Source of the DNA: Paramacrobiotus metropolitanus
Taxonomy: Eukaryota; Tardigrada; Eutardigrada; Parachela; Macrobiotidae
Direction of reading: 5' to 3'
Assembly (NCBI RefSeq): GCF_019649055.1
Contig: NW_026570228.1
Span: 992,001-1,056,000 of the forward strand
DNA: 64,000 nucleotides
The notes under the pieces were generated by a model. It saw only the letters and a list, made by a program, of their open reading frames with translations. It searched no databases and was not told where the DNA came from. Positions 33,370-64,000 of this stretch are shown in pieces (within the stretch, counting starts at the first letter, position 1; every line of letters starts with the position of its first letter). Both the position numbers and the translations under genes were made by a program.

Positions 33370-33452
33370 GGAGATATTTTAAAGTTTGCGAGGTGGACAA
33401 GTTACTAGTCATTCAAATTTCTTCCTTCCTCGAACGGTCTTCATCCGGAAAC

Positions 33453-34839: not shown

Positions 34840-35159
34840 TTAAGGAAATGGCCCGGTACATGGTGTCAAAAATGGGATACATACACTAAAACTTTCGCTT
34901 TCGCGCACTCCGAATCGCTTTTTTGTAATACTTTATGTCCTTCTAAAGCTAAATGATTTGTATTCATGTTCTGAAAACCGTTTGCGCGCGCAACATCCGG
35001 TTGCCGAGAAATGGCGTACTAAAATGGGCGAAAAGTTTAAATGCAAGCTTTAGAAGGACATAAAGTATTACAAAAAAAAGCGATTCGGAGTGCGCGAAAG
35101 CGAAAGTTTTAATGTAAGTATCCCATTTTTGAAGCTATGTACCGGGCCATTATCCTTAA
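34840..35159. mobile_element. TTAA-flanked MITE, 312 bp (second copy)
   Basis: TTAA at 34840-34843 and 35156-35159 flank an element with TIR GGAAATGGCCCGGTACATGG and its near-reverse complement. Both arms share TTTCGCTTTCGCGCACTC and GCGCGCAACATCCGGTT with the 679-bp copy at 21.05 kb. It is shorter and non-coding and belongs to the same family. Confidence 0.85.
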
Positions 35160-41857: not shown

Positions 41858-44800
41858 ATGTTGCACCATTTTTTAACTTTATTGATCATCTACGAACTGC
41901 ATGCCGCACGTGCACAGGATGAAGTGTACGCTCGTCCGTGGAAGATCCTCGGAAGCCGCGACCAGACGTTGCCGGTATTCAATGGTAATACCACCAATTT
42001 ATTCATAATTTACTGGCTTTATTACTAGTAATCAAATATTGCAGGAACCAAAAGGTCTCCAAATGACGAATCACTGAGTGGCAATTCTTCTAACGGAACA
42101 TATATAACAGAACTGTGTAGCTCTGATCGGCCGGTAATACCGACAGCAGATCAAGTTAGCCACCAACCAATTTTCATGCTAAAGGACGCCCGTTTTCGCG
42201 AATGGGCGACCATCATAAGGAAATTTGGGCTTCTGCATGTGATCGGCTATTACGGAATTCACCAGATGGCCATTTCCGGCGGTGATCTGGCACCAGAAAA
42301 AATCGAGCAGGCGTTAACTACCGCCTGGAAAGTGCCGATTGGTAGGTTTTAGGCATCAAGTTTTATTAAAATTTAACTATTTCGAGGATGTAGTAAAGCA
42401 TTCTATCTTTTGATCACAGAAGCCGCTGAAGCTGCTCTCCGATCCCAAGAGTACTTTCTCCGTGGTGCCGAATTCAAGATACAAGCGTCAATATTAGAGT
42501 TGGACAAACACCGATGGTTCTCGCAAAACGGGTACTTATGCAGTTTATTGCTTGCCGTTTGGGTCTTTTGGCATAATTTTGGAATAGTAATAATTGATAA
42601 TACTTGCAGAGATCATGTCGCTCGCGTTACATATACCATAGTTCTGATAAGCACGGAAGCAGACGTTCCCAGAACGCTGCAGCGAATTCCTCTGATTAGC
42701 GTCGATCACTTAGCGGAAGAACTACGACACGAGAATATTACACTACATGTCGGGCCTATCTTTCGCGCCTGGTTGGCGGATATGACCAATGCTTCCAGTG
42801 TCACGGATAAGCTTAAGGAACTGCAGTCGGTTTTACCCAACACGGCCAGCATGTGCTTTTATTCTATAATAAACGCTGGGGCTGCGCTGCGAGATGTCAG
42901 AACCGTGCAAATTATACCCGGACAACCGTTTAACGTAACATACTATTCCAGTGTTTCACGGCCGACGGAGGATGCGGTCCCGCACTCCGGCTTCTTATCC
43001 GGAAAACGAATGTGAGCATTCCTTTTGCTTATCAATAAATTGTGGTTGTGCACACTACGAAATGACGAATACGGAATACACCCTGCCATTTTTGCAGATT
43101 CAGACGAACGATTCTGCCGTTTCTCATCAAGATCAACGGCAGTGTTCTTCCTACTTCGTATGACCCAAATCTGCGAACCCATGCCGCACTGCAGACTCTT
43201 AGTGAAGGAAGCTATGATCTGGAAAAGAGCGAAACTCCGATGCAGTATAAACTCAACAATCCCATCCATTTCCAGGACCTTCCCGGCATAGCGGACGGAA
43301 TAGCCAAGGCCGTGCAATCGCGGTTAGAGGGTTCATCAAAATTTGTTCTGCGAAGTACGTATACTACTCTAAACACTTCGATGTTTCTCGCGTTCGGGAC
43401 ATTGTTTTTATACACCCAAAACACATTCGTGCAGTGATTTTGAACCAATATGTAAGCAATTTCTCCAAATCTCAATCGCTTATTCAGGTGTCACCACAAA
43501 GCGGTTGTATGTAAGTAATATCTAACGCAAAATCCTTTGTAGCACGCCATAGGGTATTGATGCGAATATTCTTAAAATTCTTATAATAGATATAATACTT
43601 AATTCAGTCGAATATTCTTAAAATTCTTCTATTCTTGCGAAGTAAAAATAATAGGAATTATGTAGTAATGACCGAAATCATGAATAGTGTTCCGAATGCG
43701 CGAAACACCGAAGTCGCGCTACCGAATAAGAGTATTACTCTTAGAGTAATGCGGACTGCTCCAAGCTATAAAAATTGGTTTAGTTATACCGTAAAAAACA
43801 TTGTTTCGTTCGCCACTCAGTTATCAGTGTTGCTTTTAGAGGAGCTGAACAACCCCGACCTACTGGGAGATAGATTGTTTCTCGGATGCACTACAGCCGG
43901 TCTGAGCGTGGACGGGATGACGGTGTCGGCACAGTTGTATGCCGGTAGAATGAAGCCCGGCGATGCTTTGTTCATATTGACGATGCCGGTTGATCCCACT
44001 TTACCGCTTTACAAACCGTTGTATAACGCCGTGTACGGAAAGGCGATCCAAAGCAGTCCTTACCCGGTTCGAGTAGTCGATCCAGATGAGGCAGAGGATG
44101 ATGGCGGTTTGCCACCGATGATGGCACTGCCACCAATTTCGAACCATTATCCGCTCGCATTAATCATCGACGAAGTTGGCGAAGACCCTGAAATCTTGAG
44201 TTCTACGGTATGGTTTCACCTGCACGCTTACTAGTGGAATTTTGAGCTTCAGTGTGCGTCGCTTTCAGCTTTCGCCTTTCTGCAGGTTCTCGATAAAGTA
44301 TTAGGATTAGTCGTGGCGGCTTTCAACGAGGCAAATCCACTGCAGTTAAACGATAACCGCTTGAATATCACTCTGACACGGTATGAAGGCGGAAAGACCA
44401 TGAACCAAGATATGTAAGGCGCGCAATATCATATTCGGCCTGCCTAACCATGACCTTTTGATAGTATTATGTTTTGAGCAGGAAAATGTTTTTACCTTTC
44501 AATTTGCCATCGTAAAGTCCGGAACGGAGAGCACATGGAATCTGTGGCAGCAACCGACCTTAAGCATTTTGCGGAGTATTATTATAAAGTTTAGGCATCC
44601 ATGGCGTTTGGCATCCTTTAGCGGTGCCGATGATGGATACAGCCGTGCTCGTCTGAATACAATTTCCTAACAGCTGGCAATTTGTAAAACCGGCGAGATA
44701 GTACCGACGTTCTTAATTAAATTACCGGACTTGCAGTTGTGGTTGCATCCCGGCATTCACGGGAAAATGTTTTCCGCTGATATTTATTTTACTGTTTGCT

Positions 44801-44864: not shown

Positions 44865-45968
44865 GAAGATTTGTGCAAAGCATTTAATTTCTGACGTCAA
44901 AAAACCATAGACTTCATATGGCCGACCTTGAAACTTCTCGAGATTAGAATGCTACAGACTACAGTGCTCGTATGGATAAATGTCCTGGATTTCACCGTGT
45001 CTGTGACTTTTGGTTCATATGGCCGCAAGAAAGTTTACGGTGCTTATCGCAACTCCGTTTCCGACTAGACAGCGCTAAATTTTTCGCGGTACTTTTCTTG
45101 TGGGCGGCGCCGGCGAGCCGGTTGTTGTTGTTCTATAGGGCCACGTCGGGTAAATAATCCGAGCGGACAAACAGACAAAGCGAGACGATCACGAAACAAC
45201 AATTTACTTAACCGGTAATGAATGAAATCATAGTATTGTTTTTGGGCTTCACAATAGTATTAATTTTAAATTTCTTTTCCGCCATGCAGCATTGTACACT
45301 ATGTATATCACACATCAAAATTTAACAAGAATACGTAAGACGTAAAGACCATAAGATGCGTCTTATTACAAAACTATTATCATATTTTAATTTTTCTTTT
45401 TGTTTAACAGTTCAACATTCTCGGAGTTTGCTCGCTGTTCGACTCTCCACAGCCAGGATTCCGCGGCTGCATACGAGCCGGCAAACTGATGGTGAGAGAT
45501 GACAGCTCATAGCGACTGCCACAGGCACGCTCTCAATAATTTTGTGCCGTCTGGCCCGTCTGAGCGTCTCACATTCCCTATCATGAAACATAAACGCATG
45601 CCTGTTATGGCACAGGCCTGCATACTTGTGCGCAGAAAATAATAAGTCAGTGTTATGGTTTAGCCTGAGACACTGAAGTATTCCACACTGTCGTCCAGGT
45701 CTTCTCTTTTGGCTAATTGGCTTGAGTCCTTTAGTATTAACCGGGCTTTGTATTTTCTGAGCTAGCAAATAGCTTACATGTTTTAAAATTCGATTGAACC
45801 ATTTTTAACGGGACAGGTCGCTAAATTTCGTGACAGCTGAGTTTTACTGGTCCAGATTTACGGAATTGCAGCTGTCTTCAACAAGTAAGTACTTGGTTAT
45901 CATTCATCAAGCATTTTAGATGATTTTGATGAAGATTATGACCTACGTTATATCCACAGAAGTCCACC
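44865..45968. other. Spacer upstream of F-box copy A, shared with copy B
   Basis: TGTGGGCGGCGCCGGCGAGC at about 45099 recurs at about 51416. The run CAGCATTGTACACTATGTA at about 45287 recurs diverged near 52109. These matches define the duplicated unit. No additional exon is recognised. Confidence 0.5.
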
Positions 45969-48900
45969 ATGTACCTGTACGAAGATGGTACCCGGTCTGT
46001 GCAGGCATGGAATGCTGTGGATGTTGAAATCGATGGTCTGTTCCAGCATGGCCATATCGTTGGCCTGGAAGAGTCTGTCAGTATTCCACCACGCCTAATC
46101 ATCGATTTCGGATGCTCGACACAGCAGTCGGTGCCGGTTGATAACGTGAAGGTATTTACCTTCTCCACCTTTCCCTCCTTCCAACCGCGTCAGGAAGCTG
46201 TGGAAGTGCTGTTGTTCGATCATCCTGGTCGTCCATGGAAATGGTATCCCGGCAAAGTCCTCATCAATTCTTTCGCGAACTTGCGGAACCATGCGCTGGT
46301 GGAAGTAACAGTAGGTGGGCAACATCTTCGCGAACTGCTTCCCAACGAACAGATCCGTCCGGTGTCTTCGGAGAAACGACTGCAACGCAAGCGCGTTCAG
46401 CCGGGGATTTTGTAATGCGGACATGCAGAGTGCCAAACGGCTACTGGGTTCTGACAGAGTGCTTCGCCTCGAAGCTGCTCCGCCATATTCAGCGAAGGTT
46501 TCGTGTGCGATTCACCTACGTTTTCGGCCAGGAGATGCATTACATCCAACAGCACACTAAAAGCCCTTTAGAAGATGCCACAATCGTAAGTTATCGCCTG
46601 CATTCAGATTTTTAATGGGCAGTTGGGCACTACTTTCTGGACGAGTCGGAGGGTTTCTGAAGGCGTTAGGGGGCAGGTATCTCGTACCAAAGAGGGGTGT
46701 ATTATTATACTGCTTCGAATTTTCGGAGACCTCCGCCGAAAAAAGTTTTCGGAATGTGCCCTCCCTCTTGTGAATTTCGTTTTGAGAAAATAGTCTGGAA
46801 ATATTTTATCTCTCCCAGTTTTTTCGCGGCCCGTTGAAAACAGCGTTCTTCTGGCCTCCCGTACTGCTGGGGAGTATAGCTAACACGTGTTTCCGGTAAG
46901 CTGCCGATCTAGAGCCCAGTGTACCCCAACGAAGGTTGGGCGCATTAACGGTTTTCGCCCGAATGTATAGAAATAATTTGGCCGCATACTATCTTAAAAC
47001 TGTGCCGAAGAGCGTGTGGTCGCGCGCGAGTTCCCGTTTGCGTACTGATGGGTCGATATATTGCACTGGAACATTGTCCCTAAAGCCTGTCTGCCATGCT
47101 CTTTTCTCGTCGTATCATTTAGATGCACAAAGCGCATTCAACCGAAAAACCGGGGTAGCTGAGATGCAGAATACAAATTCACGTTTGTAACTGTCCCGTG
47201 ACCGACCAAGTCGTCGCATAAAATCTCGTCGCGGGACACTTCGTCGGCCACATTTGGTCGCGAAGACATTTAGTTTCTGGAAAAGTCGTTGCTTGTCAAT
47301 TTGGTCGGGAGACATTTGGTCGCGAGACATCCGGTAACACGGACACATCGGGGCCAGACATTTCGTCGGCGGGACAATTGGATACCCAATTATTTTAAAA
47401 GAAAAACTTTATTTCAGTTAAAAACTCCGTCGTTTGACTTCGAATTAATTTTACTGAGACCGGCATGTAAGATTACACATTTCCATATATTTTTAAATTT
47501 TTGAAACCGTAGTCTTACATTTTAAATGAATTATACACAAATTTAAGTTGCTGATTTGTACATAGTGCCTTTCTTGGAAAACACTGACGACCTAATAATT
47601 ATGATACACTATAGTGACTATACTAATGATAACTAATCTATTTGCTACTCATTACGTGGTATTAAAATAACAAATATTACACTAGGAAGTTCACAGAGCT
47701 GGCAATAAACCAAGCGAGCGAGAACCATTAGTTCCAGTTATTTATCCCAGTTCATCTCCGGCTTCTAACAGACTCTCTATTTGGAGCTCATTCACAGAGA
47801 AATCACAGCACGGACACTCACCCTCACTTTCCTTTACCCGAACAATGATATAGTTCCAGTTCCCATCACACACTTTGATTGTGTGATATAGGGCTGGACC
47901 GAACTAGTCTCCGATTCCACACATTGACACATACAGTCTGTATAAGATACAAAAGCATTAGGATCAAGTCGTTTACTGCTGAACAGCAATAAAATTTAAC
48001 AATGGTTTTTCTTTCGACTTGCAGTTGCTCTTTCTCTCTTACGATTGTAAAGCCAGGCAAGTCTGGTTTAATGTCTTTAAAGTCGACGCTAAATCGCGCC
48101 AAGATCACACTTCAAAAAACTTACGACAACGGTGCTTCCAAGATAATTACACTATTTTGCTAGTTTTTTAACTAAGGCGGTATGTCAAGTATGTTAGTAT
48201 GTCAAGGCGGCTGACCGCCTTGCGAACGTCGTTTTCGACTGCCTAACACCAGTTGTCCTCGACCAAACGTCCTTTAGACGAAGTGTCCCGCGACGACTTG
48301 TCACGTAGCCAACTGTCCACCATTTGCGCGGCTAAAGCCGAAAACTTTGCGTTGGGTCAGAGACTTAAGTCGCTCTTAGTACTGTACTTGTCATGGGCCC
48401 ACGGATAAGCCAACTCTGGCTTCTGAAGTTTCTTTTCTTCACCACAGGCGAAAGTTTTCGAAAGAAAAACTGGAATTCATCCGTAATGGCAAATTCCTGG
48501 TGGAGGACTCTCGCCGCCTGGAAGGACCCGACCAGGAAAAACGGTCCGATACGAAATGGCGCGGTTGGGCACTGCCAACCGAACTCTTTGAAGAGGTGTT
48601 TCAGTCGCTGGACACCATCGACCGACAACGCTGCCGACGCAGCTGTCAACTGTGGGATGCCATTCTCACTTCGACGGAGATGTGCAAAGTTGTTCGCGTA
48701 TCGCTCAAGCATCCACCTTTCTCCCAGCGGCTCGCCAAAAAATGGAATGATTGTTATGCCGCGTACGGTTGCTTCTTCAAGCACATAACTTCTGCAGCAC
48801 GAACCATCTGCATTCGAGACACGGAATGGGACTGCGACGATCAGGACGATTTGAAACTCGCCGATGGAGCGACAACGTTGATGCAAAAACTCTTGCACGA

Positions 48901-50147
48901 AGCCGGCATTCGCATCGAGCGTTTGATCGTGCACCACCGATCACTGACCATCGACCAGGGTGAACCCGGTCCATTGAAGTTGCAGGTGGTTTTTGCCGCG
49001 ATAGCCGCGCTAAATTCCAAGCTGGCGACCTGCTGCGACCGCTTGATTTGGAGAAGGCATTCCTTGAAATGCGAAAACAGCACCGGTGCGATAGTGCTGG
49101 AATTCCGTGTTCCGATAACGATGTTCAACCTGGGGGGTGTGGGAGCACCACAGATTTGGGATACATTTGAGCAGCACCTGCGCTGCACGGGACCGGCGTT
49201 AGATATGGACCGCATCGCCCAGTGGATGGCGAGATGCACCCACAGGAATGCGAGAACTAAGAGATTTGAAAAGGTATTGTTTTTCATGGTATTATATGCT
49301 GTACGTGGGAATCGTCAAAAGTTTTCTACGTTAAGTCGCCTCAGATGAGCTGCGCATTTTGGTATCTCGTATATTTTTGCAGAAACTGGCTTTAAATTAA
49401 ATGTTTTAGAGGAGTAGCGTTAATGATTAGGGTATCATTTTTGTGTGAAATTAACTTCAACTATCGCGCTTATGCAGTCCTAAACACTTTTTGCGTTATT
49501 TTACATCATTTTATAGTCCAAACGGTTTCTCGTTGCCCTGAAATCGCTTGATCGTGAACCATACGGGAGATATGAAGCCACTACGTCAGCTCGCAATTGC
49601 ATACAATAATTTCAGATTTGGTCAATATTGGTCATTATTTGTGCAAATTCGGATGAATTCAATATTACACAAATGTTTGGAAGGATATTTTCCCACTATT
49701 GAGCCTACTTCTATGCCGTAAAACGGCGGCGGTCTGTTTGATAGCTTTGTGTCTTGTCTTCCTAATGTCATTGATTTTTGACATGCAGATTCTGAACGAT
49801 TTTCAATCGTGCGACCCGCGCCCCTCTGCAAATTTTCGGGAGATCCTTGGACAGTGGGCGCTATGACCAACCTGGACGTCCACAAGCTGAACACGTTGTG
49901 TCTACATGTCTTGTGGCACTTCGTGCAGAAATGGAATCGAACGTCTTCGGATGACGCTACGGACTCCAGTGGCAGTTCTGAATCCGATCCCGAAGACAGC
50001 TCCGATTCCGAAGAGAGCTCCGAGTCGGATTCGCACGGCAGCGACGATACCGAATCTACTAATGATGGCTCTGATTCCAATGGAAGCTCCGAGTCTGATA
50101 GCAGTTCTGAAGCCGAGTCTAATGACACCACCGACTCCGATTTCTAG
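45969..50147 (+). CDS. F-box-family protein, tandem copy A (three small frameshifts)
   Basis: Three exons: 45969-46585, 48448-49273 and 49789-50147. Exon 1 holds the family's own domain (AWNAVDVEIDGLFQHGHIVG, LIIDFGC, WKWYPGK, LRELLPNEQIR, then FRVRFTYVFGQEMHYIQ). Exon 2 holds an F-box, WALPTELFEEVFQSLDTIDR then QRCRRSCQLWDAI, with the LP, F and final W of that motif, followed by about 200 residues of unknown fold ending DMDRIAQWMARCTHRNA. Exon 3 gives CDPRPSA, LNTLCLHVLWHFVQKW and a Ser/Asp/Glu-rich tail ending TDSDF. F-boxes recruit substrates to SCF ubiquitin ligases through SKP1; the acidic tail and N-domain may bind the substrate, which is inference. Indels: four G instead of five at 46403-46406, two bases lost near 48465, one base lost near 49840. 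Each is inferred from copies B and C. Confidence 0.75.
46960..47085. mobile_element. TTAA-MITE relic in intron 1 of copy A
   Basis: GCCGAAGAGCGTGTGGTCGC then GAGTTCCCGTTTGCG corresponds to GCCGAAGTACG and GAAAGTTCCCGTTCGTC at 53.54-53.6 kb in copy B. The following GTCTGCCATGCTCTTTTC matches GTCTGCCGTGCTTCCTTTTC. It is heavily decayed and recognisable only by comparison. Confidence 0.45.
47188..48330. mobile_element. Foldback element with subterminal tandem repeats, inside intron 1 of copy A
   Basis: The left end (47190-47385) is made of decayed repeats of a 20-24-bp unit such as GACATTTGGTCGCGA and GACACTTCGTCGGC. The right end (about 48230-48325) is their reverse complement. An exact 18-bp pair is CGTCGCGGGACACTTCGT at 47227-47244 and ACGAAGTGTCCCGCGACG at 48278-48295. 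The 800 bp between are AT-rich and non-coding. Copies B and C lack it, so it arrived after the duplication. The design, tandem repeats in inverted termini, is that of FB/Galileo-type foldback elements. Confidence 0.7.
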
Positions 50148-50830
50148 GACAGCCTCGGTTCCACAGCGGATCAAACATAGTCCAACTTCGATATGTATGT
50201 AGTCGGAGAACTGTCGACCATCTTCTTTAACTAAAAAACGATGTCATAGCGCTTGATTTAGTATGTTTGTAAGCAGAGTACGAAGATACAATGGACGAAC
50301 AGAAATAGTTAAGGTCCAATTAAAACGCGTTTCGATGTCCTTAATATGTTGTTCACTTTTGTGTTTCATGTACATTGTACACTAGTACATTTACGTGTTC
50401 TCACGACGCTGGACGTCTCCAGACGTCAGCCATCCTCACGATTCTGTTCATTTCTGTTCTACCAAAATAATAAGAATTACGCAAAAAAGTTCCCTGTTAA
50501 TGCCAAATCCAACAAACTTGCTACACGGTGTTCTGTTTGCTTAGGGGCAAAAATGGGGATTTAGGTGCAGACTCAACGGAACAGAAAGCCAACAAGCACG
50601 CACACATCGAGTGAGCAACCGGAGTGCCTTCGTAGAATGAAACCGGAAAACGTTCCGTTCCGAATGCGGAGTCATGATAATACTACGCAGAGTTAAAAAA
50701 AACACCGAAACACCCGGTTTTCTATGCATCTCTTATGCGAAGCCGATCGGCCATCGGTCACAGGAGAATTTTATCCCGACAAATTGAAATACGACTTTTT
50801 ATGCAAAATGCTGCAGTGATTTCCTCTAAC
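50148..50830. other. Spacer between copy A and unit B, no gene seen
   Basis: ACAGAAATAGTTAAG at about 50300 recurs after copy B (about 55889), so the 3' flank is also part of the duplicated unit. Confidence 0.4.
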
Positions 50831-51354
50831 AGGAGTGGATCAGTTGGCGAAAGAATTACCGCACGAAAAATCACACTACATGTCCGGCCTGTCTTTCGTG
50901 CCTGGTAGGGAGATATGACCAATGCTTCCAAAGTCACGGAGAAACCGGAGGAACTGCCTTCAGTTTTACCGATCGAAAACCATGTGTTATCGTTCTATAA
51001 TAAACGCCGGGTCTGTGCTGCGGGATGCCACAACCGTGTAGGTTATACCCGGAAAGACGTTTAACGTACCATACTATTCCAAGGTGTCGCGGGCGACTAA
51101 GGATGCAGTGCCGCATTTCGGCTACTTATCTGGAAAACGAAAACGAGCTATCGTAGGTTGTTGGATGTACCGATACGCACTACGCAGTACGAATACTCCG
51201 CCATTATACTCGCTGCCATTTTATAGCAGATCGACACGACAGATTCTGCCGCTTTTTATCAAGATTAACAGCAGTGATCTTGCTGCTTCCTACAAATCGA
51301 GTCTCCGATATCACATGCTGGTGCAGCGTCTCAGTGAAGGAAGCTATGATTAGG
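50831..51354 (+). pseudogene. Decayed fragment of the unknown secreted-protein gene
   Basis: Matches exons 4-5 of the gene at 41.86 kb. The 5' part aligns with the VDHLAEELRHENITLHVGPI region (TGGCGAAAGAATTACCGCAC and onwards). The middle aligns with GFLSGKR (GGCTACTTATCTGGAAAACG), then ILPLFIKINSSDL, and it ends LSEGSYD followed by a TAG at 51350-51352. Several frame breaks and stops are present. It shows that the secreted-protein gene and the F-box gene were duplicated as one unit. Confidence 0.75.
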
Positions 51355-51453
51355 AAACGAGCGCAACTGCGCTTTCGACTACACTGGACTGTCTGGACAT
51401 AATTGTTCGCGTATTGTGGGCGGCGCCGGCGAGCCGGTTACTGTTGTGCTATA

Positions 51454-51965
51454 CAGTGGACTGCGAAAACCTGTTATATTCGGTCACACAAGAAGTTGAA
51501 CACTTGCACGTTGCGCATTTCCCAACGAAAACTATCAACCGATATCTCAAACGAAGAGCAAAAAATTTCAAGAATTTTGGTACCAAACAGGTGATCCTTT
51601 ATGAGACGTAAAAGAAAATTTTTTAAAGAGCCATTTTAGTTTGTCGTAGACAAAGCATACGATTTCTGTGTGAAAACTGAATCCAAACAGGACCAAACCG
51701 TGGATTCAAATCCTATGCTATGTCTACGAGAAACTTTAGGTGCGTCGATTCTCCCTTAGATCCCATAAAAAACAAATTGCTTGGTATTAAAATTCTTGAA
51801 ATTTGTTTCTCTTTCGTTTGAGATATCGGTCGATGGCTTTCGTTGGGAAATGCGCAAGGTGCAAGTGTTAATACCAGCAGGCAGATGGCCAATCATGAAT
51901 TTGGCTGTTTCAGTACAGAAAAGTGCCTCGTTGCGCGCGTTGTAACACCTTTTCGCAGTCTACTG
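51454..51965. mobile_element. Foldback Tc1/mariner-type MITE, 512 bp
   Basis: The left end CAGTGGACTGCGAAAACCTG and the right end, reading inward CAGTAGACTGCGAAAAGGTG, are inverted. The arms continue to pair for nearly 200 bp (GCGCATTTCCCAACGAAA; ATCTCAAACGAAGAGCAAA). The centre (GTCGTAGACAAAGCAT / ATGCTATGTCTACGAG) pairs too. The preceding TA and the CAGT start fit Tc1/mariner ends; the right flank reads TT instead of TA. The transposase gene at 62.83 kb is preceded by TACAGTGGACACC, sharing the first eight bases. Confidence 0.75.
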
Positions 51966-52716
51966 TTGGACCACGTTGGCAGACGTTGCATGAATAATCG
52001 ATAGTGGACAATCGACAAAGGGACGATTACAAAACACTAAATTTGACCGGCACAAAAGGATCTCATATTTGTTTTTGGACTTTACAGTAGTATTAATTTC
52101 TGATCCACTATGCAACATTGTTCACTAGAAGTATGTATTTCACACTTTTCTTTAACACAAATACGTAAGGTGGGTTTTAGTCTTATCGTATATTTTTTGC
52201 TTGTTTAGCACTTCAATATGCGCTACTCGACCGGCTACAGACACGATTCGACGGCTGCATACGAGCCGGTAAATTCCAGCCGCTCTCGTTCAATATTAAA
52301 ATTGTGATGCAAAATATCAGCGTATGCCTGCTATTGCAGAGCACACTAGTGCGGAGAAAATAATAGCACTATCGATTTTTCTGAAGTATTCCGCACAGTC
52401 GCACAGGTCTTCTCTTTTGGCATAAGTCACTATTTACCTGGCTCAGTATTTTCAGTTGGACGCTTTTTGGAGCTACCAAATAGCTCATGCGGAGCAAATA
52501 GCAAATAAATTTTCAGTTGGAGTCAATTATTCTGTAACGGGTCAGCTGGTTAAACTTCTTAACAACAACTACAATTACTTCTTAACAAGTTTTCCTTTTA
52601 CGGATTATGCTTCATTAAGTATTACAGTTGTTGATTCAGCGTATGTACTTGATTGTCAAGCAGTTCGATGATTCTGCTAAAGATTGTGGCCTGCTTCGTA
52701 GCCAAAGAAGTCCACT
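51966..52716. other. Spacer upstream of F-box copy B
   Basis: Homologous in patches to 45.2-45.97 kb. No separate gene is recognised. Confidence 0.4.
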
Positions 52717-55700
52717 ATGTATCTCTACGAAGACGGTACGCGGTCTGTACAGGCATGGAATGCGGTGGATGTTGAAATCGACGGTCTGTTCCAGCATGGC
52801 CATATCGTTGGCCTGGAAGAGTCTGCTAATATTTCGCCACGCCTGATCATCGATTTCGGATGCCCGTCACAGCGGTCGGTGCTGGTTGACTATGCGAAGG
52901 TATTTACCTTCTCCACCTCTTCATCCTTCCAACCGCATCAGGAAGCTGTGGAGGTGCTGCTGTTCGATCACCCGGGTCGTCCATGGACCTGGTATCCCGG
53001 CAACATCCTCATCCATTCTTTCGCCAACTTATACGACCAAGCACTGGTGGAGATACTGCTATGCGGGCAACTTCTTCGCGAACTGCTTCCCGACGAACAG
53101 ATTCGCCGGTGGCCCTCGGACAAAATAATGCAGCGTAAGCGCCTTCAAGCAGGGGATTTCGTGAAGCGGACGTGCAGAGTGCCAAACTAGATTCTGAAGG
53201 AGCGCTTCACGTCGGAGCTGCTCCGCCGAGTTGAGCGGAAGTTTCGTGTGCGATTTACCGGCGTACTCGGCCGAGAGATGCACTATATACAGCAGCACGC
53301 CAAAGTCCTTTGGACGATGCCACGATCGTAAGTTTTGTCACGACACTCAGTTTTGAATGGGAATTGCCTTATGGGGTGGCTGGTTTTCTGACAGGGAAGA
53401 GGGGCAGAAATTTCGTGTCTAAAGAGAAGTAGTATTGCGGAAAACTTTTGCGACCTGCACCGAAAACAAATTTGCAATGAATCTTGTAAAGCGTCACAAA
53501 TGCGAAGTGCCGTAAGAGTGACCCGTTGTTAACAAATGCCGAAGTACGAAAAAGGTGCGTGAATGCGAGGAAGCGAAAGTTCCCGTTCGTCACTGACGTA
53601 CAATTCGGTACTTTGTATCGGGACATCTTCCTTAAGTCCCGTCTGCCGTGCTTCCTTTTCTTGTCCGATTATTTAGATGCTCAGGCACAATATGATCCAA
53701 AAAATGAGAAAATGGATTTGACATGTGTAAACACCCAATTTTTTATGGTCAAAGCCGGTGGTTTGGAATAGGCAAAAACAATTGAGCGTTATTTGTGATT
53801 GGGAGCGGATAAAATAACTCAGGTTTCCTATGTTTACGTTTCCTCACCACAGGCGAACGTTTTGGAAAGGAAAAGGCGAGAATTCGTACGCAGTGGCAAA
53901 TGCTTGTCGGCTGATTCTCGTTGCCTTGGAGGGCCGGACAGGAAAATGCAGTTCGGTACTGACTGGCGCGGTTGGGCATTGCCCACGGAACTCTTCAAAG
54001 AGGTATTCCAGTCACTGGACACCATCGATCAACAGCGCTGTCGACGCAGCTGTCAACTGTGGGACGCCATTCAAATTTCGGCGGAGGTGTGCAAAGTTGT
54101 ACGTGTATCGCACAAGCGTCCACCTTCCTCACCGCGGCTCGCGAAGAAATGGAACGGTTGTTATGCCGCATACGGTTGCATTTTTAAGCACATTTCACCA
54201 GCAACGCGAACCATCTGCCTTCAAGATGCTAAAAAAGACTGCGACGATCAGAATTTGAGAGACGCCGATGAAGCGATGGCGTGCATTCAGAAAGTTTTGA
54301 ACGAAGCCGGCTTTCGCATCGAGCGTTTGATCACCACCACCGATCACTGACCATCGACCAGGGTGAACCCAGTCCACTGAAGTTGAGCATGGTTTTGCCG
54401 CCATAGCTGCGTTACATTCCAAGCTAGCGACCTTCTGTGACCGCTTGATTTGGAAAAAATATTCCCTGAAATGCGAAAACAGCAGCGGTGCGAAAGTGCT
54501 GGAATTCCGCGTTCCGGTTTCAGTGTTCGTTCTAGAAAATGTGGGAGAAGCACAGATTTGGGATATATTTGAGCAACACCTGCGCTGCGGGGACCCGGCG
54601 TTAGATATGGACCGCATCGCCCAGTGGACAGCCAGGTGCACCGACAGGAGTGCGAAAACCAGGAGAATCCAAAAGGTACTGTATTTACAAGGTTTTATGT
54701 GCTGCACATGGCAATTCGCCAAAAGTTTTTCTTATGTTTAATCTTCATATCTGAGCTTCGCATTTTGGTATCTCATAGATTTTTGCAAAAACTGGTTTTA
54801 AAATAAAATATATTTCAAGAGAAGTAGCTGTGGCCTCATAGGGTATCATTTTCGCGCGAGTCCACTTCAACTGTCGCGTTCGTGAACCCCAACCCTTTTT
54901 TGTTTTTAATTACTACGTCCTTTTATCGTTATTGGTACTTTATATTGGTATATTTTGTTTTTAATAGTATTTATTATTATTTTCAGTTTTTATTAGTACG
55001 TCATTTTAGAGCCTAAACAATATTTACATGGTCCTGAAATTGCTTGAACGTGAACGATACGGGAGATATGAAGCACACAACAACAATTTGCTCCCGATGA
55101 CATATTTTCAAATTCGGTCCAAAATGGTCTATATTTGTACAAATTTTGATGAATTTATCACTACATGCACCAAAGCTCGGAAGACGGAAGGGGCAGTGAG
55201 GCACTAATAAAATGATGTTTTTCCACTGTTGATCCGACTTCTATATCGTAAAACGGCTGCGGTCTGTTCGGACAGCTTTGTGTCTTCTCTTCCTAATGTT
55301 ATTGACTTTTTGACATCAGATTCTGAACGATCTTCAATCGTGCGATCCGCGTCCCTCTGCAAATTTACGGGAAGATCCGTGGACAGTGGGCGCTGTTGCC
55401 AGCGTGGACGTCCGCAAGCTGAACACGTTGTGCTTACATGTCTTGTTGCACTATGTGCAGAAATGGGATCGAGCACCTTTATATGACGCTACGGACTCCA
55501 GCGAGGGTCCCGATTCCGAAGACAGCTCCGGTTCCGAATCTAACCATGGCTCCGAATCTAACGGCAGTTCCGCTTCCGAAGACAACGGGCAGTCCGATTC
55601 CGACGGCAGCTTCCTCTCTAACTCTGATTCTACCGAAAGCCCCGATTCCGAAGACAGCCAGATTAATTCCAACGAAAGCTCCCGCTCCGAGTCTGATGAC

Positions 55701-55721
55701 AGCACCGACTCCGATTTCTAG
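52717..55721 (+). CDS. F-box-family protein, tandem copy B (premature stop and frameshifts)
   Basis: Exons 52717-53327, 53853-54675 and 55320-55721 mirror copy A. Exon 1 is open to VPN, then TAG at 53188-53190 replaces the codons for GYW (a six-base loss plus a base change relative to copies A and C). The sequence after it stays homologous (FTSELLRRVERKFRVRF). One base is missing near 53308. Exon 2 is open from ANVLERKRREF through the F-box (WALPTELFKEVFQSLDTIDQ then QRCRRSCQLWDAI) to IERLI, where one base is lost near 54330. The downstream part resumes in another frame (KKYSLKCENSSGAKVLEFRV, then IWDIFEQHLRCGDPALDMDR). Exon 3 is fully intact, CDPRPSANLREDPW through LNTLCLHVLLHYVQKWDRAP to the acidic tail ending TDSDF, and serves as reference for the other copies. 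Probably non-functional, or carries assembly errors. Confidence 0.7.
53480..53635. mobile_element. TTAA-MITE relic in intron 1 of copy B
   Basis: AATGCGAGGAAGCGAAAGTT then GGTACTTTGTATCGGGACAT and TTCC-TTAA at 53632-53635 match the right arm and end of the TTAA family (GCGAAAGCGAAAGTTTTAAT; TATGTACCGGGCCAT; TCCTTAA). The left half is decayed. Confidence 0.65.
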
Positions 55722-56762
55722 GATAGCTTGGATTTCAAAGTGGATCAGTAGACAACCGAACGATGTGAACTGTCGACACACGTACTCGAGTAACTGCATC
55801 AACTTATTATTCTTGCACTGTCTTGTTGCCATACCGCTTGAGCTTATGAAGTAAGCTTACTATATAAGTACAGCTAGTGTGCAGTGGGCAAACAGAAATA
55901 GTTAATGACTTAATGTCAACTTAAACCGGGTTTTCGCTGTTATTAATCTGTTGCTCATTTCACTGTTTCATATATGTACCCCTACGTGGTCCCATGACCT
56001 TTGACGTTTTTAGAGTTCAGTAGTGGCGAGTTTTGTAGCACGTTTGTTTTATTTTTTAAAGACAGCGCGCGCTCGTCTGGTCAATCTGTCAATATTGACA
56101 TATTGACGAAGATTAAATGGGAGCTCGCCTATCACCTCGACTCTATTCCCTTTTTGCGCCGGTCGATATGTCAATATTGACGTATTGACAGAAAATAACA
56201 GCAGTTGTTTCCATAAACGTTTACCATGTAACGATTAACGACGGTCAGTTTGTTATTATTGACGAATGGACTACTTATAGACTGACGTCAGCATGCCTTG
56301 ATGGACAATTTGACCGAGTAACACGAGAAATTCAAGCAAATCAACAAATTGAAATACCGACTTGAGAAATAGTAAACATGCATTACCCGATTACCGAACG
56401 AACTACAATTAGCACATTAAAGCGAGGAAAACGTTAACACACAAGATGTTAAAGCCCTTCCAAAAGTAACTAAAGTTTCAAGCCGGCTTCGATTAAACTG
56501 TAGCGTTAACTTCGTCGACACAAGATCCGTCATCCCAGGCATAACTTCCGGTGGTCAAGGACTGATTTCGTCGATAAATCAGTCTGTTGACGTAGAACAA
56601 CTGACGATTTCTTGGAATGTGATTTAGAACAGCCTCGAACCGACGAAACCAAGAAAGCCCTTGCTCGGCGGCCCTGGTGTTACATTTTTGCAAAGTTGGA
56701 AGTTTCTCTTTGATTCGCCGTGGGTGAGAGAGATGGCACGAGTTAGGGCTTCTCAACTTATC
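55722..56762. other. 3' flank of copy B and spacer, with repeated GTCAATATTGAC words
   Basis: TGTCAATATTGACATATTGACG at about 56087 and TGTCAATATTGACGTATTGACA at about 56168 are near-identical 22-bp words, each itself palindromic at GTCAATATTGAC. A weaker third lies near 56250. No gene is seen. Confidence 0.5.
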
Positions 56763-57370
56763 CGTACCGACACTGTATCCTCTGTACCAACACTGTATCC
56801 TATTCGTACCCACTGTACCGACACTGTACCCAATCTCTATCCACTGTATCTGCCTTGTTCCCGGTGTACCGACACTGTACAATCTGTGTCTGCACTGTAT
56901 CCGCTGTACCGACACTGTACAAGCTTGTCCGGTAATTTCTGACGAATCAATACAGCGATCTACACAAATTTGCGTGTTACGCCAAACTTCACACTACGGC
57001 GCGCCACGCCACACTGTTTAAACACGTAACTTGCATTTGACTGGCTGGTGGCTTGGTACACGCCATACAATTGTATGAGGATAATAGTAACTGCCTGGCG
57101 GAAGGTGGCTAGAAAATGGTCGGTGCAGTAAGCGACAATCTGCCTACGGAGCGCATTTAGGAAATTTGATAAACGTAGTGCAGTGGCCCTCGTTATAAGC
57201 GCAAATTTCGCGCTAGCTGTACCTTTACGTAGGAAATTACCGGACAAGCTTGTACCCAATCTGTATCCACTGTGTACGCCTCTAACCCGTGTAACGACAT
57301 TGTGTCCTATTCGTACCTACTGTACCGACGCTGTATCCTAAACCATCCACTGTACCGTCCTCGTACCCTT
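56763..57370. repeat. Degenerate tandem array of CTGTACCGACA units, split by a MITE
   Basis: Units of roughly 12-18 bp (CACTGTACCGACACTGTATC and variants such as CACTGTATCCGCTGTACCG) run 56763-56916. They resume at 57254 as ACCCAATCTGTATCCACTGT and continue to about 57370. The interruption is the MITE described separately. Confidence 0.7.
56917..57255. mobile_element. 339-bp MITE inserted in the tandem array
   Basis: GTACAAGCTTGTCCGGTAAT plus TTC (56917-56939) is matched exactly, 23 bp, by its reverse complement at 57233-57255. The array continues on either side, so insertion followed array formation. A minus-strand frame inside (57259-56960) reads through both TIRs and has no recognised domain. 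Confidence 0.8.
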
Positions 57371-57468
57371 CTTGTTCCACCATTATTCTGCTTTATAGCC
57401 AGTGCCAGTGTCACTGCACGGACGCTGGCTGTTAATGTACTGCTTGTATCCCTTGTGTCTTAAAATAA

Positions 57469-58012
57469 TCAAGTTGTCGTCTTCGAGTCGCTAAAGGTGC
57501 ATTCGTATCCAAAAATAAAACGGCATCCTCTGCACGTTTTCTGTATCACAACGACATTTCGTGAGGTGCCATCTGATTCAAACACCGTGGCCTTTGTGGG
57601 CGGTTTATGAGTTGGCAACAAAAGTCGAGGAGCTCCTCGGGAACCGTTTCGATATTTGCACTTCAAAGGGCAATATTTCATGGCAGGCGGGAGGAGACCA
57701 AGTGATTCACGCTCGTCATACTCAGTGTCGCACAAGGGAAAATATTCCTCGAGATGACGTTCTGTGTCTGTAGCCGGCTGATCGGAGGAAAGCATATCAA
57801 TAGCCTGGAAAAGAATGAAAATGTTTTGGCGAACTAAAACTGAATAATCTGCTTCAGTAAATTATTTCCATTACTTATTAGTTTTTTACCTGGATCAGTT
57901 CAGTGCGACAGGAAGGTCGCTCTACAAACGGGAATTTCTTGTAACAGTCGCGGACAAATAAAAAAGCATCAATGCCAAATTTCGTTTCAAAGGTCAATCG
58001 ATTGTCTTCCAT
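57469..58012 (-). CDS. Small Cys-motif protein, two exons
   Basis: Exon 1, 58012-57890, encodes MEDNRLTFETKFGIDAFLFV and onwards to ELIQ. Exon 2, 57804-57469, starts AIDMLSSDQP; splicing is phase 0 with a clean GTAAAA donor and CCAG acceptor. The 152-residue product has a C-x3-C (YCPLKC) and later a C-x2-C (KTCRGCRFIFGYEC), spaced like a zinc-binding ribbon with TKATVFESDGTSRNVVVI between them. This recalls cysteine clusters found next to KDZ-type transposases, but I cannot show that. It may be the N-terminal part of a transposon-derived gene or a small nuclear protein. The frame is intact. Confidence 0.6.
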
Positions 58013-58605
58013 GTTTTTTTTTTCCGGAAATTAGTTAAACGAAGAATTTTTTAATAAATAGCTGTTTTGGCGCGTTTGTAAGACAGCCAAATCAAAGTGA
58101 TAAGCCAAGCGTGATATGACAAAACTGCACACACCTCACGTAGCGAATACACTTCCTATACCCGGCATTTTGCTAACATGGCATCAAAACGTGACCGCTA
58201 GCAAATTGCGTAAGTAATTCCTTGTGTTATTTCTGAATCCGTCTTGTGGTAAGAATTGTGAACAAACATCGATCGCAATGATAAATTATAGCACTGATTA
58301 AGTTTAAAACAGCATTCTAATAATTTGCCATTACACGTTTTGTCATCATGTTCTTAAGCACAAACGCGCCTCATAATAACGCAACGATGCAAATAAAACA
58401 GTGGTAAGCGGCGTCTTGGCTAAGTCGATTTATTTTGGTCTTGAAGCTAACAACTAAAAAGGAATAAGCAAAACCAACTGACGGATTCCAGTGCGGCAAA
58501 CAATTGCTTCATCCAGTAGTGCTGGAACCGCTCTTCTTTGTCTGCTGTGAAATGTGAATATGCAAAACTGATATTGTGTTAGTCACGATAAAAACCCAAA
58601 CCTTA

Positions 58606-59054
58606 CCGGTGATCATTCGTCGGAATCAACATCCACTAAATCGAACGAACGCTCAACAGAACCTAAAAATAAAATATAAAATTAAGTAACAAATATCGCA
58701 CTAGTTTCCATATAATTTTTGTACCTTTCTTTCGTTAATCAGTCTGGCTTTTCCACAAACTTGGCTCGATGCTTCGAATCCACTCCTCTGGACAACTGAA
58801 GGGCTGCTGGAATTTTGCTTTACCAAGCGCATCATACCACGTTTCGAATGCCGCTGCATTAGTGAGCAGCCAACGCTTTTCAGCCAAGGTTTGAAGTTTT
58901 TTTGCATGAAAAAAAGGAAACGCCTTAGCTTTCTACCTGCAACACTGTAATAATGCCAGTCATGCCACTTACTTTACTGAAATTTGTCGAATAACTGCAG
59001 TTTTTCAATTAAAAATGGACATAGTGATTCAGAATTTTGTTTTCCGGAAACCAT
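58606..59054 (-). CDS. Uncertain minus-strand gene, pieces only
   Basis: ATG 59054 reads MVSGKQNSESLCPFLIEKLQ then LFDKFQ to a stop beside a GTAAGT donor. A second piece (about 58900-58735) reads KKLQTLAEKRWLLTNAAAFE, then TWYDALGKAKFQQPFSCPEE and WIRSIEPSLWKSQTD. A third, after an acceptor near 58663, reads SVERSFDLVDVDSDE and stops. The pieces look protein-like (many W, E, L) but I could not join them without a break. The position and direction suggest a neighbour or an old duplicate of the 57.5-58.0 kb gene. Confidence 0.3.
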
Positions 59055-59845
59055 CTTGTCTCATAACTTTTTTAAAAAATAATTTTAATAAAATGTCACA
59101 CTTTTGTACGATATTGTTTAAATTTCCCTTTTTCTGTTATAAGTATTGATCATTCGGATGAAACTGACATGATACCAAGTGAGCCTGGGACTGACCCGGC
59201 GTGCTTTAATAACCAAACCGAAACTTTGTTCAACCAGGCGGTAAGTAATTAATAAGAATACGCAAGATGTGTTTTATCATTAATTTTAGTTTCTACCGGC
59301 ACAACACGCTCGCTGCTGTGTACCAGTGTACTCACACTCTCACAGCAGACACGACTCAACCACAGCGACGTAGTAGTATTATTGCGTACGACTGTTATGC
59401 TGAGAGGTGACTCATCGGAAGTCGATCTCGAAAGCGCATGCATGTTGCGGGCCTTGCGGCATACTGCCATAGTGCCATAGCGTGGCATAGGCATAGCAGT
59501 AGATACGTACTATAGTAGATAGCACACTTGTGCGCAGAAAAGAATTCTGAAAAACGTATTTCGTCCACGTCCTCTCTCTGTTTACTATATTGCCAACTGC
59601 CACTAATTTCTCGAGTAAATAGTAGTGAAAATGATTCTGTTAATCTATTCAACCTCTTTAACGGGACATTTCGTTAAATTTCTTTACAACTGAGTTTTAC
59701 AGGTAAAGTACTAGTGCCAGACACTGCAAATGTCTTAATCTAGACTAACTGTTACGTATAACGTATGTGCTTGCAAGTTGCAGTTTAACACTTTTGCAGT
59801 TTTGCTGAAACCTTTATCCTGCGTTGCAGCCAGAGAAAGTCTCTC
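59055..59845. other. Spacer upstream of F-box copy C
   Basis: AATAAGAATACGCAAGATGT (about 59251) matches the AAGAATACGTAAGACG region ahead of copy A (about 45328), placing the start of unit C here. No gene is seen. Confidence 0.4.
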
Positions 59846-60779
59846 ATGTATATCTACGAAGACGGTACGCGGTCTGTGTATGCATGGGATGCTGTGGATG
59901 TTGAAGTCGACGGTCTGTTGCAGCATGGCCATATCGTTGGCCTGGAAGAATCCGCAAGCATTCCCCGCGTTTGATCATCGACTTTGATGCCCCGCACAGC
60001 AGTCAGTGGCAGTTGACTACGGGAAGGTAATTAGTTGCTCCACACCTCCCCTGGGGACGGCGCCGAGGAGCTACTGTGGAGGTGCTATTATTCGATCATC
60101 CGGGTGGCACATGGAAATGGTATCTCGGCAGAATTCTCGTCAATCCTTTCGAGAACTTATGGGACCATACGCTGGTGGAGGTATTAATGAATGGACAGCG
60201 GTTTCGCGAATTGCTTCCCGATAAACAGATTCGCCGGACGCTTTCGGAAAAACGACTGCCGCATAAGCGTTTTCTGCCGGGTGATTTCGTCATGGGGACA
60301 TGTAGTGTGCCGGACGGATACTGGATTCTGCAACACTGCTTAGCCGTGGAATTACTCCGCCAAATTGAGCGAAAGTTTCGTGTGCGATTTACGTACGTTC
60401 GCAGCCAGAAGATGCACTACATGCAGCCTGGGTGCCGGAAATCCTTTAGGGGATGCTACGATTGTAAGTCGTTGTCGTAACTTGAGTTTTCACTTTAGGC
60501 GGATTTTAGGGGTGAGCGAAAAACATCAATGTGCGAGTATTGCATCTGCGGCCGTGGAAGGTTTTCAGTGGCACTCTTGCACATTTTCGCGTTATCTCCC
60601 TGGCCTCTCCAGCCCCCTTCTTCCAATGTCATCAAGGTGGTTCCGTCGTAAATGGAGTTGTTATATTCCTACTGGGGTAAGCCACCGACCTGGAGTGCAG
60701 GCTGTTCGCCCAGAACTTCGCAACTCATTTCGGTAGCGCAACCGGTTTTCGTGCCAGTGTGTAATTATTGGGGGTACAT

Positions 60780-60860
60780 TAGTACAAACTCATAATACAA
60801 TCCTGAAAGAGTTCGGGAGCGCGGGCAAGCGAAAATTTCCGTGAATTCACACGCGTCTAT
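60780..60860. mobile_element. TTAA-MITE relic in intron 1 of copy C
   Basis: GAGTTCGGGAGCGCGGGCAA then GCGAAAATTTCCGTGAATTC aligns with the arm of the TTAA family (GAGTGCGCGAAAGCGAAAGTT) at the equivalent place to the relics in copies A and B. Confidence 0.45.
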
Positions 60861-60999
60861 ATATTTTTGTTGGTGGACACTTTCCCTGCATTGTTGAACC
60901 CGTCATGGCTGTGCTCCTTTCCTCCTCTTGCCTTCAGCTTCACAAGCCGACAGGGGCTATTCGAGACCCCTTCGACCATCTACTATTTTTTTTAAGCCA

Positions 61000-61530
61000 A
61001 ATCTGACCACGTTTTAATAATCAGCAAATTTTTCTGATCTAGAAAACATTTTTTTAAATTTTTTCGGAATAACAAAATTCTGACTGCCAGCCCTTGGCCC
61101 CACAATACCCTGGCGGTAGCAATAGCAATGAGATCAGGGCAAAATTTGATTTTCGTCTTTTCTACACAGTTTTTAGTTAAATTAATAACGCTGAATTCGA
61201 ATTTAATGTTAAAAATATGGTATGAGCTGAGTATAAAAAAATTAACGTAAAACAACCAGGTACTTACACAATTGATGTGTAAGAACGATTACTGACATCC
61301 TTCTCAGCAAAAGGTTGCTCCACACTGCTCATATCAGTTTTTTTACATCAAATTCAATTCAGCGTTATTACATATTTATTAAGTTACCTAGAAACTGTGT
61401 AAAAAATAAAATTTTGCTTGATTCCATTGCTACCGCCCACGGTACTGTGGGGCCTAGGGTTGGTCAGTCAGAATTTTTTGTTCGAAAAAAATTTTGAAAA
61501 AGTTTTTCTGCATTCAGAAAAAGATTTACT
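61000..61530. mobile_element. Foldback element, about 0.5 kb, in intron 1 of copy C
   Basis: The left arm contains TGACTGCCAGCCCTTGGCCC then CACAATACCCTGGCGGTAGC (61081-61120). The right arm mirrors it as ATTGCTACCGCCCACGGTAC and GTGGGGCCTAGGGTTGGTCA (about 61426-61466). Mirroring extends outward through TTTTTTCGGAATAACAAAAT and inward through CTACACAGTTTTTAG. Ends are AT-rich and not exactly placed. Copies A and B lack it. Confidence 0.7.
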
Positions 61531-62297
61531 GCGTGAATTTTTCAAAGAAAAGATGTAAACTCGTGGCAAATTCTTCATGGATGACTGTTGCCGCCTCCGA
61601 AAAGTAGCGAGTGAATCACATTGAATGCGCATGGTACGGCCCTGCCCATAGAACTCTTAAAGGCTTTCGTAACCAGAACATGGAACGGTAATTATGCCAC
61701 GTACAGTTGCATCTTTTGCATTACTCCCGCAGCGCGAATCATTTGCATTCGAGCTGCTGAATGGGAATGCGACAATCGTGACGATGTGAAAACGCCGATG
61801 AAGCTGTGAAGTTGATTAAGAAGGTCTTGAATGAGGCGGCATTCGCATCGACTGTTTGATCGTGCACAACCGATCCCTGCTCATCGATCAGGGGAGCCCG
61901 GGCCGTTGAGGTTGAAGGTGGTTTTGCCACGATAGCTGCGTTTTACTCCAAATTGGCGACCTGTTGTGGCCGGTTGATTTGGAAAAACTATTCCTTGAGA
62001 TGCGAAAGAAATAACGGTGCGGTTTTATTGAAATTCTATTTTCCGCTTGCGGTTTTCATTCTGGGAAATGTGGAAGGAGCACACTTTTGGGATATATTTG
62101 AGCAGCACCTGTGCTGCGGGGGACTGCCGTTAGATATGAATCGCATTGCCCAGTGGATAACCAGTTGTACAGACAAGAATGCAAAAGCCAGGAAAATCCA
62201 AAAGGTATTTGCGGGTCCTTATTACGGTACAGGCATATGTCACCGAGAGTGCGTCGTCTAAGGAATTCAGTGAGTTATAATTACAATTCCACACCGG

Positions 62298-62345
62298 CTT
62301 AAGAGACATGACCCGGCACATGGTGCCAAAGTTGTGATTAATGGG
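62298..62345. mobile_element. TTAA-MITE end fragment
   Basis: TTAA then GAGACATGACCCGGCACATG, followed by GTGCCAAAG, matches the left end of the TTAA family. Only one end is visible. It lies in intron 2 of copy C and is a separate insertion from the intron-1 relic. Confidence 0.6.
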
Positions 62346-62828
62346 GTGTTAATACGAATTATGCACATGACTGCAGTGTTTTCTAATGGTTTTGTTTCAT
62401 TGTATCTATTTTCCTAACGTGATGATTTTTTTAATAAGCAGGTACTGAAAGATCATCAATCGTGCGATCCACGTCCCTCTGCACACTACCGTGGCAACAC
62501 CTGGACACAGGACGCTTTAGCCAGTATGGACGTTCGCAGGCTGAACACACTGTGTTTTCATGCCTTGTGGCGCTACGTGCAGAAATGGAGTCGAACACCT
62601 TTGGATGCCGCTAGGGAGTATTCCGACGGCAGCTCCGATTCGAAGACAGTTCCGACTCCGATGGCAGCACCGAATCAATTCCGACGATAGCCAGGAGTCC
62701 GATTCCAGCAGCTCCTCCGACTTGGATCATGATTACCGTTCCGACGCTGAGCCAAATGACAGCACCGACTCCGACTGCCAATGAGGATCAGATTGACTGC
62801 CGGTTGATGTGAACCACTAACGCGTAGT

Positions 62829-64000
62829 ACAGTGGACACCATAAATGTGGTTACACTCAATTAGCGCGCAACCGAGCGCTTGTCTGTTCAGGCACAGCCA
62901 CTTCCGGCTGGCCATCGGCCGCCGGCTAAAAAATAAGAATTCTTGTCGGCCTTCTGCTGTTCGTGTTTCAGCTCCTTTATTTCGTTTTGTAATCTTTAAT
63001 TTTTCATTTCTTCCGGTTTTGGATATTGTTTATTCAGAATGCCGTGAAATGGCACCTGGAAAGTATATTGACGCAGATTTGGTGAAAGCGGTTTTCAGAT
63101 TGTATGCAAAAGAAAAGAGCGTGAGAAAAGTCGCATCAGTGTTTGACAAGTCGCACCAGTGGGTAGCCAAGATTCTGCGCAACTACGACCAACTAACTGG
63201 CGAGATCAAGCAAAAGAATTCAAGAGGACGACCGAAGAAAACGACGAAAGAGCAAGATGAAATTGTTGTCCAGTTTCTTAAAGAAAATCGCACCATGAGC
63301 GGCGTAAAAGCAGCAGCCCTTATGCAGTTGTCCTACAGCACTCTGCTCCGAAGACTGCACGAAGCTGGCGCGCGACGAAGTAAAGCCGTGGCAGACGAGC
63401 TGACGCCGAAGCATAAGATTAAGGACGAGTCTGGACGACAGAGTGTACTGGTGTCTCTGGAAGAGAGCAGCTGCTGAGTGATCCGCGTTTTCAACTCTGT
63501 CATCTTCTCAGATGAATGCACCTTTAAACTGTCAGGAGGCCGAGTTGAGGTACGTATGCACAATACGGAATTCAGAAAAATCCAAATAATTTAACTTTTT
63601 TAAACGCGTCAATTTTTAACGGAAAACAATTGCAAACAAAACAAAATTCTGCAATTTATCAACTTAAAAATTTTAATTTTGCTCACAGATCTGGTTATTT
63701 CGCGGAGAAGACAGATTTGCAAATAATCTTCAAGTGAAAAAGTCGCTGCAAAATAAAGGGGGAATCGCTGTCTGGGGCGCTATCTGCGCAGCTGGTCCCG
63801 TGTCGTTGGTCCGCTTTCAAGGCACGATGAACTCTCAAAAATATGAAGACGTACTCTTCGACGAGCTCCTGCCTTCCCTGGACGAGAATGGCCGCGACAT
63901 GATCTATCAGCAGGACAACGCGCCCTGTCACAAATCAAACGTCATGAACAAATTCTTCGGCACTGAAGGAGTGAATGTGATGCCGTGGCCTGCAAGATCT
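62829..64000 (+). mobile_element. Tc1-like transposon, 5' part (runs off window end)
   Basis: The left boundary is probably TACAGTGGACACC at about 62829, a TA plus a CAGT-type end. It contains the transposase described separately. The right end lies beyond the window. Confidence 0.6.
63050..64000 (+). pseudogene. Tc1/mariner-type transposase with an intron, partial
   Basis: The frame from about 63050 (MAPGKYIDADLVKAVFRLYA) gives two helix-turn-helix units typical of Tc1-like enzymes: SVRKVASVFDKSHQWVAKIL, a GRPKKT hinge, and MSGVKAAALMQLSYSTLLRR. A TGA at 63475-63477 interrupts it after LEESSC. The catalytic part follows in the same frame: VIFSDECTFKLSGGRVE with the first Asp. A GTACGT donor at 63550 and a CACAG acceptor ending at 63688 remove 139 bp. 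The next exon reads IWLFRGED, then GGIAVWGAI and MIYQQDNAPCHKS with the second Asp, to the window edge at MPWPARS. The third acidic residue is off-window. An intron in the catalytic domain is unusual for this class. The TGA suggests an inactive copy. Confidence 0.85.

Follow-up and report, generated by a model that had tools for sequence, protein, structure and literature searches.

Probably recent frame breaks in a tandem F-box family with a candidate FMRP-like N-terminal module in the tardigrade Paramacrobiotus metropolitanus

What kind of protein was encoded by three F-box gene copies that lie in tandem in the genome of the tardigrade Paramacrobiotus metropolitanus, and do these copies still encode it? 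The copies, here called A, B and C, lie in a window of 64,000 nucleotides (positions 992,001 to 1,056,000 of contig NW_026570228.1, assembly GCF_019649055.1), and all coordinates below are those of the whole window. Our favored answer, held with moderate confidence, is that they belong to a lineage-specific F-box family of substrate receptors for SKP1-CUL1-F-box (SCF) ubiquitin ligases with an FMRP-like N-terminal module, and that the copies in the window were recently inactivated. The best reading of the family is that it is in birth-and-death turnover.

Tandem units and constraint on the ancestral protein

The start codons of A, B and C at 45969, 52717 and 59846 are spaced 6.7 and 7.1 kb apart and their exons are homologous, in agreement with the three units about 7 kb apart described in an earlier note on this DNA. 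Copy A comprises exon 1 (45969-46585), exon 2 (48448-49273, with the acceptor CACCACAG) and exon 3 (49789-50147), and copy B comprises exon 1 (52717-53327), exon 2 (53853-54675) and exon 3 (55320-55721), all on the forward strand. In both, exon 1 has a candidate Tudor/Agenet-like tandem pair followed by a KH0-like segment, exon 2 an F-box followed by a further domain, and exon 3 a helical segment followed by a Ser/Asp/Glu tail ending TDSDF. On the same strand, copy C persists as relics of exon 1 (59846-60463, with several frame breaks), exon 2 (61600-62204, post-F-box domain kept but F-box core gone) and exon 3 (62444-62783, acidic tail). The motifs AWNAVDV, LIIDFGC and W-x-WYP were located in the first exons; the earlier note had given the last of them as WKWYP.

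DNA identity over the three exon-bearing blocks is 79.6, 81.7 and 75.8% for A-B, 76.0, 75.6 and 71.7% for A-C, and 73.9, 76.1 and 74.7% for B-C, so that A, B and C are true tandem duplicates, far above chance. Intron 1 opens with a GTAAGT donor in each copy, its acceptor being recognized in A and B only, while intron 2 is bordered by GT and AG throughout. A fourth, divergent relative of exon 1 lies on the reverse strand at 3-545 (181 open codons; tblastn E 9e-12 with B and 5e-8 with A as query). The earlier note had credited it with the full architecture, but the window edge cuts off the remainder and exon 1 alone falls inside the window.

The Pfam F-box model, with a cut-off of 20.5 bits, matches copy A at E 1.7e-5 (24.9 bits) and copy B at E 2e-5 (24.8 bits). 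The core was not found in copy C, where tblastn with A exon 2 aligns only from query residue 95 on, and the homologous frame of C finishes TDSDCQ rather than TDSDF. The proposed order of first-exon domain, F-box, unassigned domain and acidic tail therefore stands for A and B but not for C, which lacks the F-box core, nor for the fourth copy, which shows exon 1 only. These data support a genuine F-box family in tandem whose complete order is visible only in A and B. After the F-box, no FTH or FBA2 match was found among the window proteins (Pfam, E up to 10), and exon 2 gave no match to a KH family in Pfam. Chains of ERI1, FANCF and SLF1 were rejected as relatives of exon 2, with phmmer E values of just 0.43 to 1.5.

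The ratio of nonsynonymous to synonymous substitution rates (dN/dS), computed with codons containing gaps or stops excluded, is 0.32 between A and B (bootstrap 95% interval 0.24-0.41; 522 codons). When the alignment was shifted by one or two bases as a wrong-frame control, the ratio rose to 0.93 and 1.12, and this difference indicates that the family once encoded a constrained protein. By segment, A-B values are 0.31 for the Tudor pair, 0.20 for the KH0-like segment, 0.33 for the linker preceding the F-box (interval 0.00-0.92), 0.10 for the F-box, 0.41 and 0.39 for the two post-F-box parts, and 0.50 for the exon 3 helix (interval 0.23-1.37). Total values for A-C and B-C are 0.36 and 0.41. The overall A-B ratio shows constraint and does not indicate positive selection.

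Predicted fold of the first exon

An FMRP-like N-terminal module had been anticipated from the exon 1 sequence ahead of the fold search. The structure of copy B exon 1 was modeled with its in-frame TAG read as Gln. The model contains strands, a second domain with five strands, and then a strand (residues 148-154), a helix (162-176) and two further strands (178-184 and 187-193). A Foldseek search of this model against 350,542 PDB chains listed 842 matches at E up to 10, six of them at E <=0.001, and all six are chains of the FMRP N-terminal domain (4qw2, 4qvz, 4ova; E 5.7e-6 to 5.9e-5) aligned over 184-192 columns at ~13% identity. Because they span so many columns, these alignments must extend beyond both Tudor domains into KH0. 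The model had no match at E <=0.001 in a viral structure library (best 1.2e-3). The sole Pfam signal in exon 1 is Agenet, at residues 77-132 of copy A (profile positions 3-59 of 61, E 0.024), where the predicted second Tudor domain sits; in human FMRP the second Tudor likewise matches Agenet, and Tudor_FRX1 and KH_9 are matched too. Overall, a tandem Tudor fold is likely for exon 1, and the FMRP kind is the best supported version of that fold, short of proof.

Several results weigh against an FMRP-type assignment. The exon 1 model is of low confidence (mean predicted local distance difference test score, pLDDT, 57; predicted template modeling score, pTM, 0.37), its global TM-scores are low (0.24-0.27), and structure prediction for the post-F-box domain reached a pLDDT of 36 and gave no usable model. 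The Agenet match is below its own cut-off and occurs in just one of five family members, and KH_9 and Tudor_FRX1, which are FMRP's own Pfam families, have no match among the window proteins. Comparisons by sequence are no stronger: a profile search of exon 1 against the PDB stayed empty up to an E of 10, hhalign against FMRP/FXR1 was not significant (P 0.11), and in 12 shuffle tests against FMRP the best alignment was equaled by 39 of 2000 shuffles and the other 11 by 177-1432 of 2000, with one printed alignment out of register. Since tests that used sequence only were not significant, the FMRP link is a fold-level assignment, supported but not proven.

Some finer comparisons were rejected. 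F32 and Y96 are described as FMRP pocket residues in the accessible part of PMC5430443. A by-eye mapping of F32 to the Phe of LIIDFGC was dropped, as hhalign places F32 elsewhere, and that of Y96 was dropped for want of a match to an aromatic counterpart. CD69 was rejected as a relative of A exon 1 (phmmer against PDB chains, E 0.62), and the same search with the fourth copy returned nothing.

The first exon could instead hold a tandem Tudor module of the 'Royal family' with another origin, for example one from a chromatin reader resembling SETDB1 or UHRF1, in which case the next segment would not be KH0 and the F-box protein would read methylated chromatin proteins. This is possible but rather doubtful. 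The tandem modules of SETDB1 and UHRF1 and the SHH1 SAWADEE domain also match the model, Agenet is a broad family, and neither the FMRP-specific Pfam models nor the sequence tests single out FMRP. Yet the FMRP N-terminal chains are followed in the ranking by the FMRP Tudor pair, SETDB1, SHH1 and FXR1, and the tandem Tudors of SETDB1, UHRF1 and FXR1 as well as SHH1 have E 1.6e-3 or worse. The FMRP chains are ahead of these rival modules by over two orders of magnitude in E, and their alignments run the full length.

The exon 1 domain had been proposed to be lineage-specific, and that view is weakened by the FMRP Tudor-KH0 fold matches and the Agenet signal, although every sequence-only comparison fell short of significance. 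Exon 1 is probably not an unnamed domain, while the domain after the F-box, for which no usable model was obtained, keeps its unassigned status. In FMRP, KH1 and KH2 follow the N-terminal module. At that place the window family has an F-box in exon 2 instead of KH1, KH2 and RGG, and we do not file it as a member of the FMRP family.

Frame breaks and the surrounding DNA

With splicing at the exon boundaries adopted in this analysis, all three copies reach a stop ahead of the F-box, after 148 (A), 157 (B) and 42 (C) residues. In copy A, exon 1 has a 1-nt gap near 46399 relative to B and C followed by a TAA at 46413-46415, exon 2 starts out of frame with exon 1 owing to a 2-nt gap relative to B, and exon 3, again compared with B, has a 1-nt gap near 49840. 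Exon 1 of copy B contains a TAG (53188-53190) next to a 6-nt gap, and also a 1-nt gap near 53303; its exon 2, compared with A, has one 1-nt gap near 54335 and another near 54393. Copy C carries more lesions than A or B, besides its missing F-box core. One T run is a base longer in A than in B and C, and either length may be ancestral. Because these stops precede the F-box, the copies are most likely pseudogenes, and because the parts beyond the stops are no less constrained than those ahead of them, the breaks are young relative to the A-B split. A, B and C are thus most likely recently inactivated duplicates.

Recent pseudogenization is the simplest reading, and its main rival holds that errors of sequencing or assembly produced the lesions and that the animal carries all three genes intact. 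Many of the lesions are indeed 1-nt gaps, and constraint persists across them, down to the dN/dS of 0.10 in the F-box. A nearby helicase-like gene at 11925-14688 also seems frame-broken by 1 nt near 13290. Against such errors, a nonsense codon accompanied by a 6-nt gap and the loss of one F-box core are among the lesions, and nearby open frames of 405, 365 and 181 codons are free of lesions, though they were chosen for being open. We consider the error explanation unlikely. The helicase-like gene, which we take to be a UPF1 paralogue, matches AAA_12 at 13939-14688 (E 1.4e-26) and seems to have Gly at the position of the DEST-motif Glu of UPF1.

Another possibility, raised in the earlier note, is that a novel N-terminal domain was joined to an F-box family whose role lay in genetic conflict, the opponents being parasites or selfish elements. 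Tandem duplication and decay are in keeping with this, as are the F-box antidotes of Caenorhabditis (PMC12680543, in its accessible part), and a conflict role is a reasonable analogy to those antidotes. The fold match of exon 1 to FMRP and the overall dN/dS, which gives no sign of positive selection even though the post-F-box segments are looser, speak against it, and we regard this explanation as quite unlikely. It is very improbable that A and B were kept as short Tudor-only proteins lacking KH0, F-box and tail, possibly as competitors of intact members: their stops do fall soon after the second Tudor and the Tudor pair is constrained, but the KH0-like and F-box segments beyond the stops are equally or more constrained, hence the stops are young, and C stops after only 42 residues.

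Some DNA upstream of the copies is duplicated as well. An unassigned stretch at 42670-43239 (forward strand), upstream of A, shares 74.3% identity with 50804-51371, upstream of B, suggesting that the duplicated unit exceeds the F-box gene. Also upstream of both copies, a block at 45098-45137 (forward strand) is 92.5% identical to 51414-51453; within it a G+C-rich 24-mer (45100-45123 = 51416-51439) stands amid diverged DNA, with two matches in the window and none expected from shuffles, and is possibly a regulatory or mobile-element piece.

Adjoining copy C, frames at 62845-64000 resemble transposases, presumably of the Tc1/mariner kind, with HTH_32 and HTH_23 matches below cut-off. A receptor-like frame at 20177-21978, which has an internal stop at 20753-20755 and resembles the open frame 15982-16809, is likely another decayed family member. 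Related small open frames at 23613-24002, 26371-26697 and 33315-33776 encode a cysteine-containing, secreted-looking protein, with DNA identity of 81-82% in two pairs and 74% in the third; the one scanned in Pfam matched no family. A repeat of about 200 bases occurs at 21048-21254, 21528-21734 and 34840-35045, with one pair inverted.

A possible ligase receptor and its parallels

F-box proteins are substrate receptors of SCF ligases, and we propose that the ancestral protein acted as one. Exon 1 would supply an FMRP-type module of two Tudor/Agenet domains and a KH0-like beta-alpha-beta-beta unit, exon 2 the F-box and the unassigned domain, and exon 3 a helix and the acidic tail. The F-box would bind SKP1, and the substrate would be chosen by the FMRP-like module, the post-F-box domain or both. 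For the tandem Agenet domain of FMRP, binding to methyl-lysine and to proteins that carry methylated RGG motifs has been reported (accessible text of PMC5430443), and KH0 is described as lacking the GxxG motif typical of RNA-binding KH domains (PMC9603430, as excerpted). By analogy with FMRP, the substrate may have been a ribonucleoprotein (RNP) protein bearing methylated motifs, brought to the SCF ligase and degraded. We put forward only tentatively that an FMRP-type tandem Tudor-KH0 reader was fused to an F-box and expanded in an animal lineage as a ligase receptor that removes methylated RNP proteins, or else FMRP/FXR proteins by way of the module through which those pair.

Compared with the FMRP/FXR module (PDB 4QVZ, 4QW2, 4OVA), the family would share the order Tudor, Tudor, KH0-like, along with the top fold matches and the Agenet signal, and would differ in its low sequence identity, in the silence of KH_9 and Tudor_FRX1 and in having an F-box where FMRP has KH1-KH2. 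The nearest parallel is the Caenorhabditis F-box A2 family (fbxa), in which, according to the accessible part of PMC12062965, a captured Tc1/mariner helix-turn-helix (HTH) domain at the N-terminus precedes the F-box and FTH. Both would be expanding families with an F-box, an added N-terminal domain and their own C-terminal domain, but here the added domain appears Tudor/KH0-like, not HTH, and what follows the F-box matches neither FTH nor FBA. The KSS/KSL antidotes of Caenorhabditis, which act via SKP1, are likewise clustered, lineage-specific F-box proteins, but of different domain make-up, as far as the available text of PMC12680543 describes them. In mammals, FBXO4-FXR1 links an SCF ligase to the FXR family, with the FXR protein as substrate (PMC5688124, accessible portion), whereas here the FMRP-like module would be part of the F-box protein. 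In soybean, one protein combines F-box and Agenet in a single chain, but the accessible part of PMC5412402 counts Agenet with the C-terminal domains seen in F-box proteins of plants and describes no tandem Tudor-KH0.

Within the literature library searched, no paper combined FMRP, KH0 and F-box, or FMR1, F-box, Tudor and domain architecture, and among papers containing both tardigrade and F-box none of the titles listed dealt with F-box genes of tardigrades. In contig collections of prokaryotes and viruses, where absence says little, pattern P0003 had no match in viral contigs, and pattern P0001 had 304 pattern matches in genome contigs and 207 in viral contigs, none of them confirmed.

Modules of the FMRP type have been described in RNA-binding proteins with a role in controlling translation. 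An intact fusion, should one exist, would couple methyl-reading and RNP binding directly to protein degradation within one polypeptide, and would offer a simple natural tool for asking what the poorly understood N-terminal module of FMRP binds. Like the HTH-F-box family in Caenorhabditis, it would also be a case in which an F-box family renews its targets by acquiring a new N-terminal domain.

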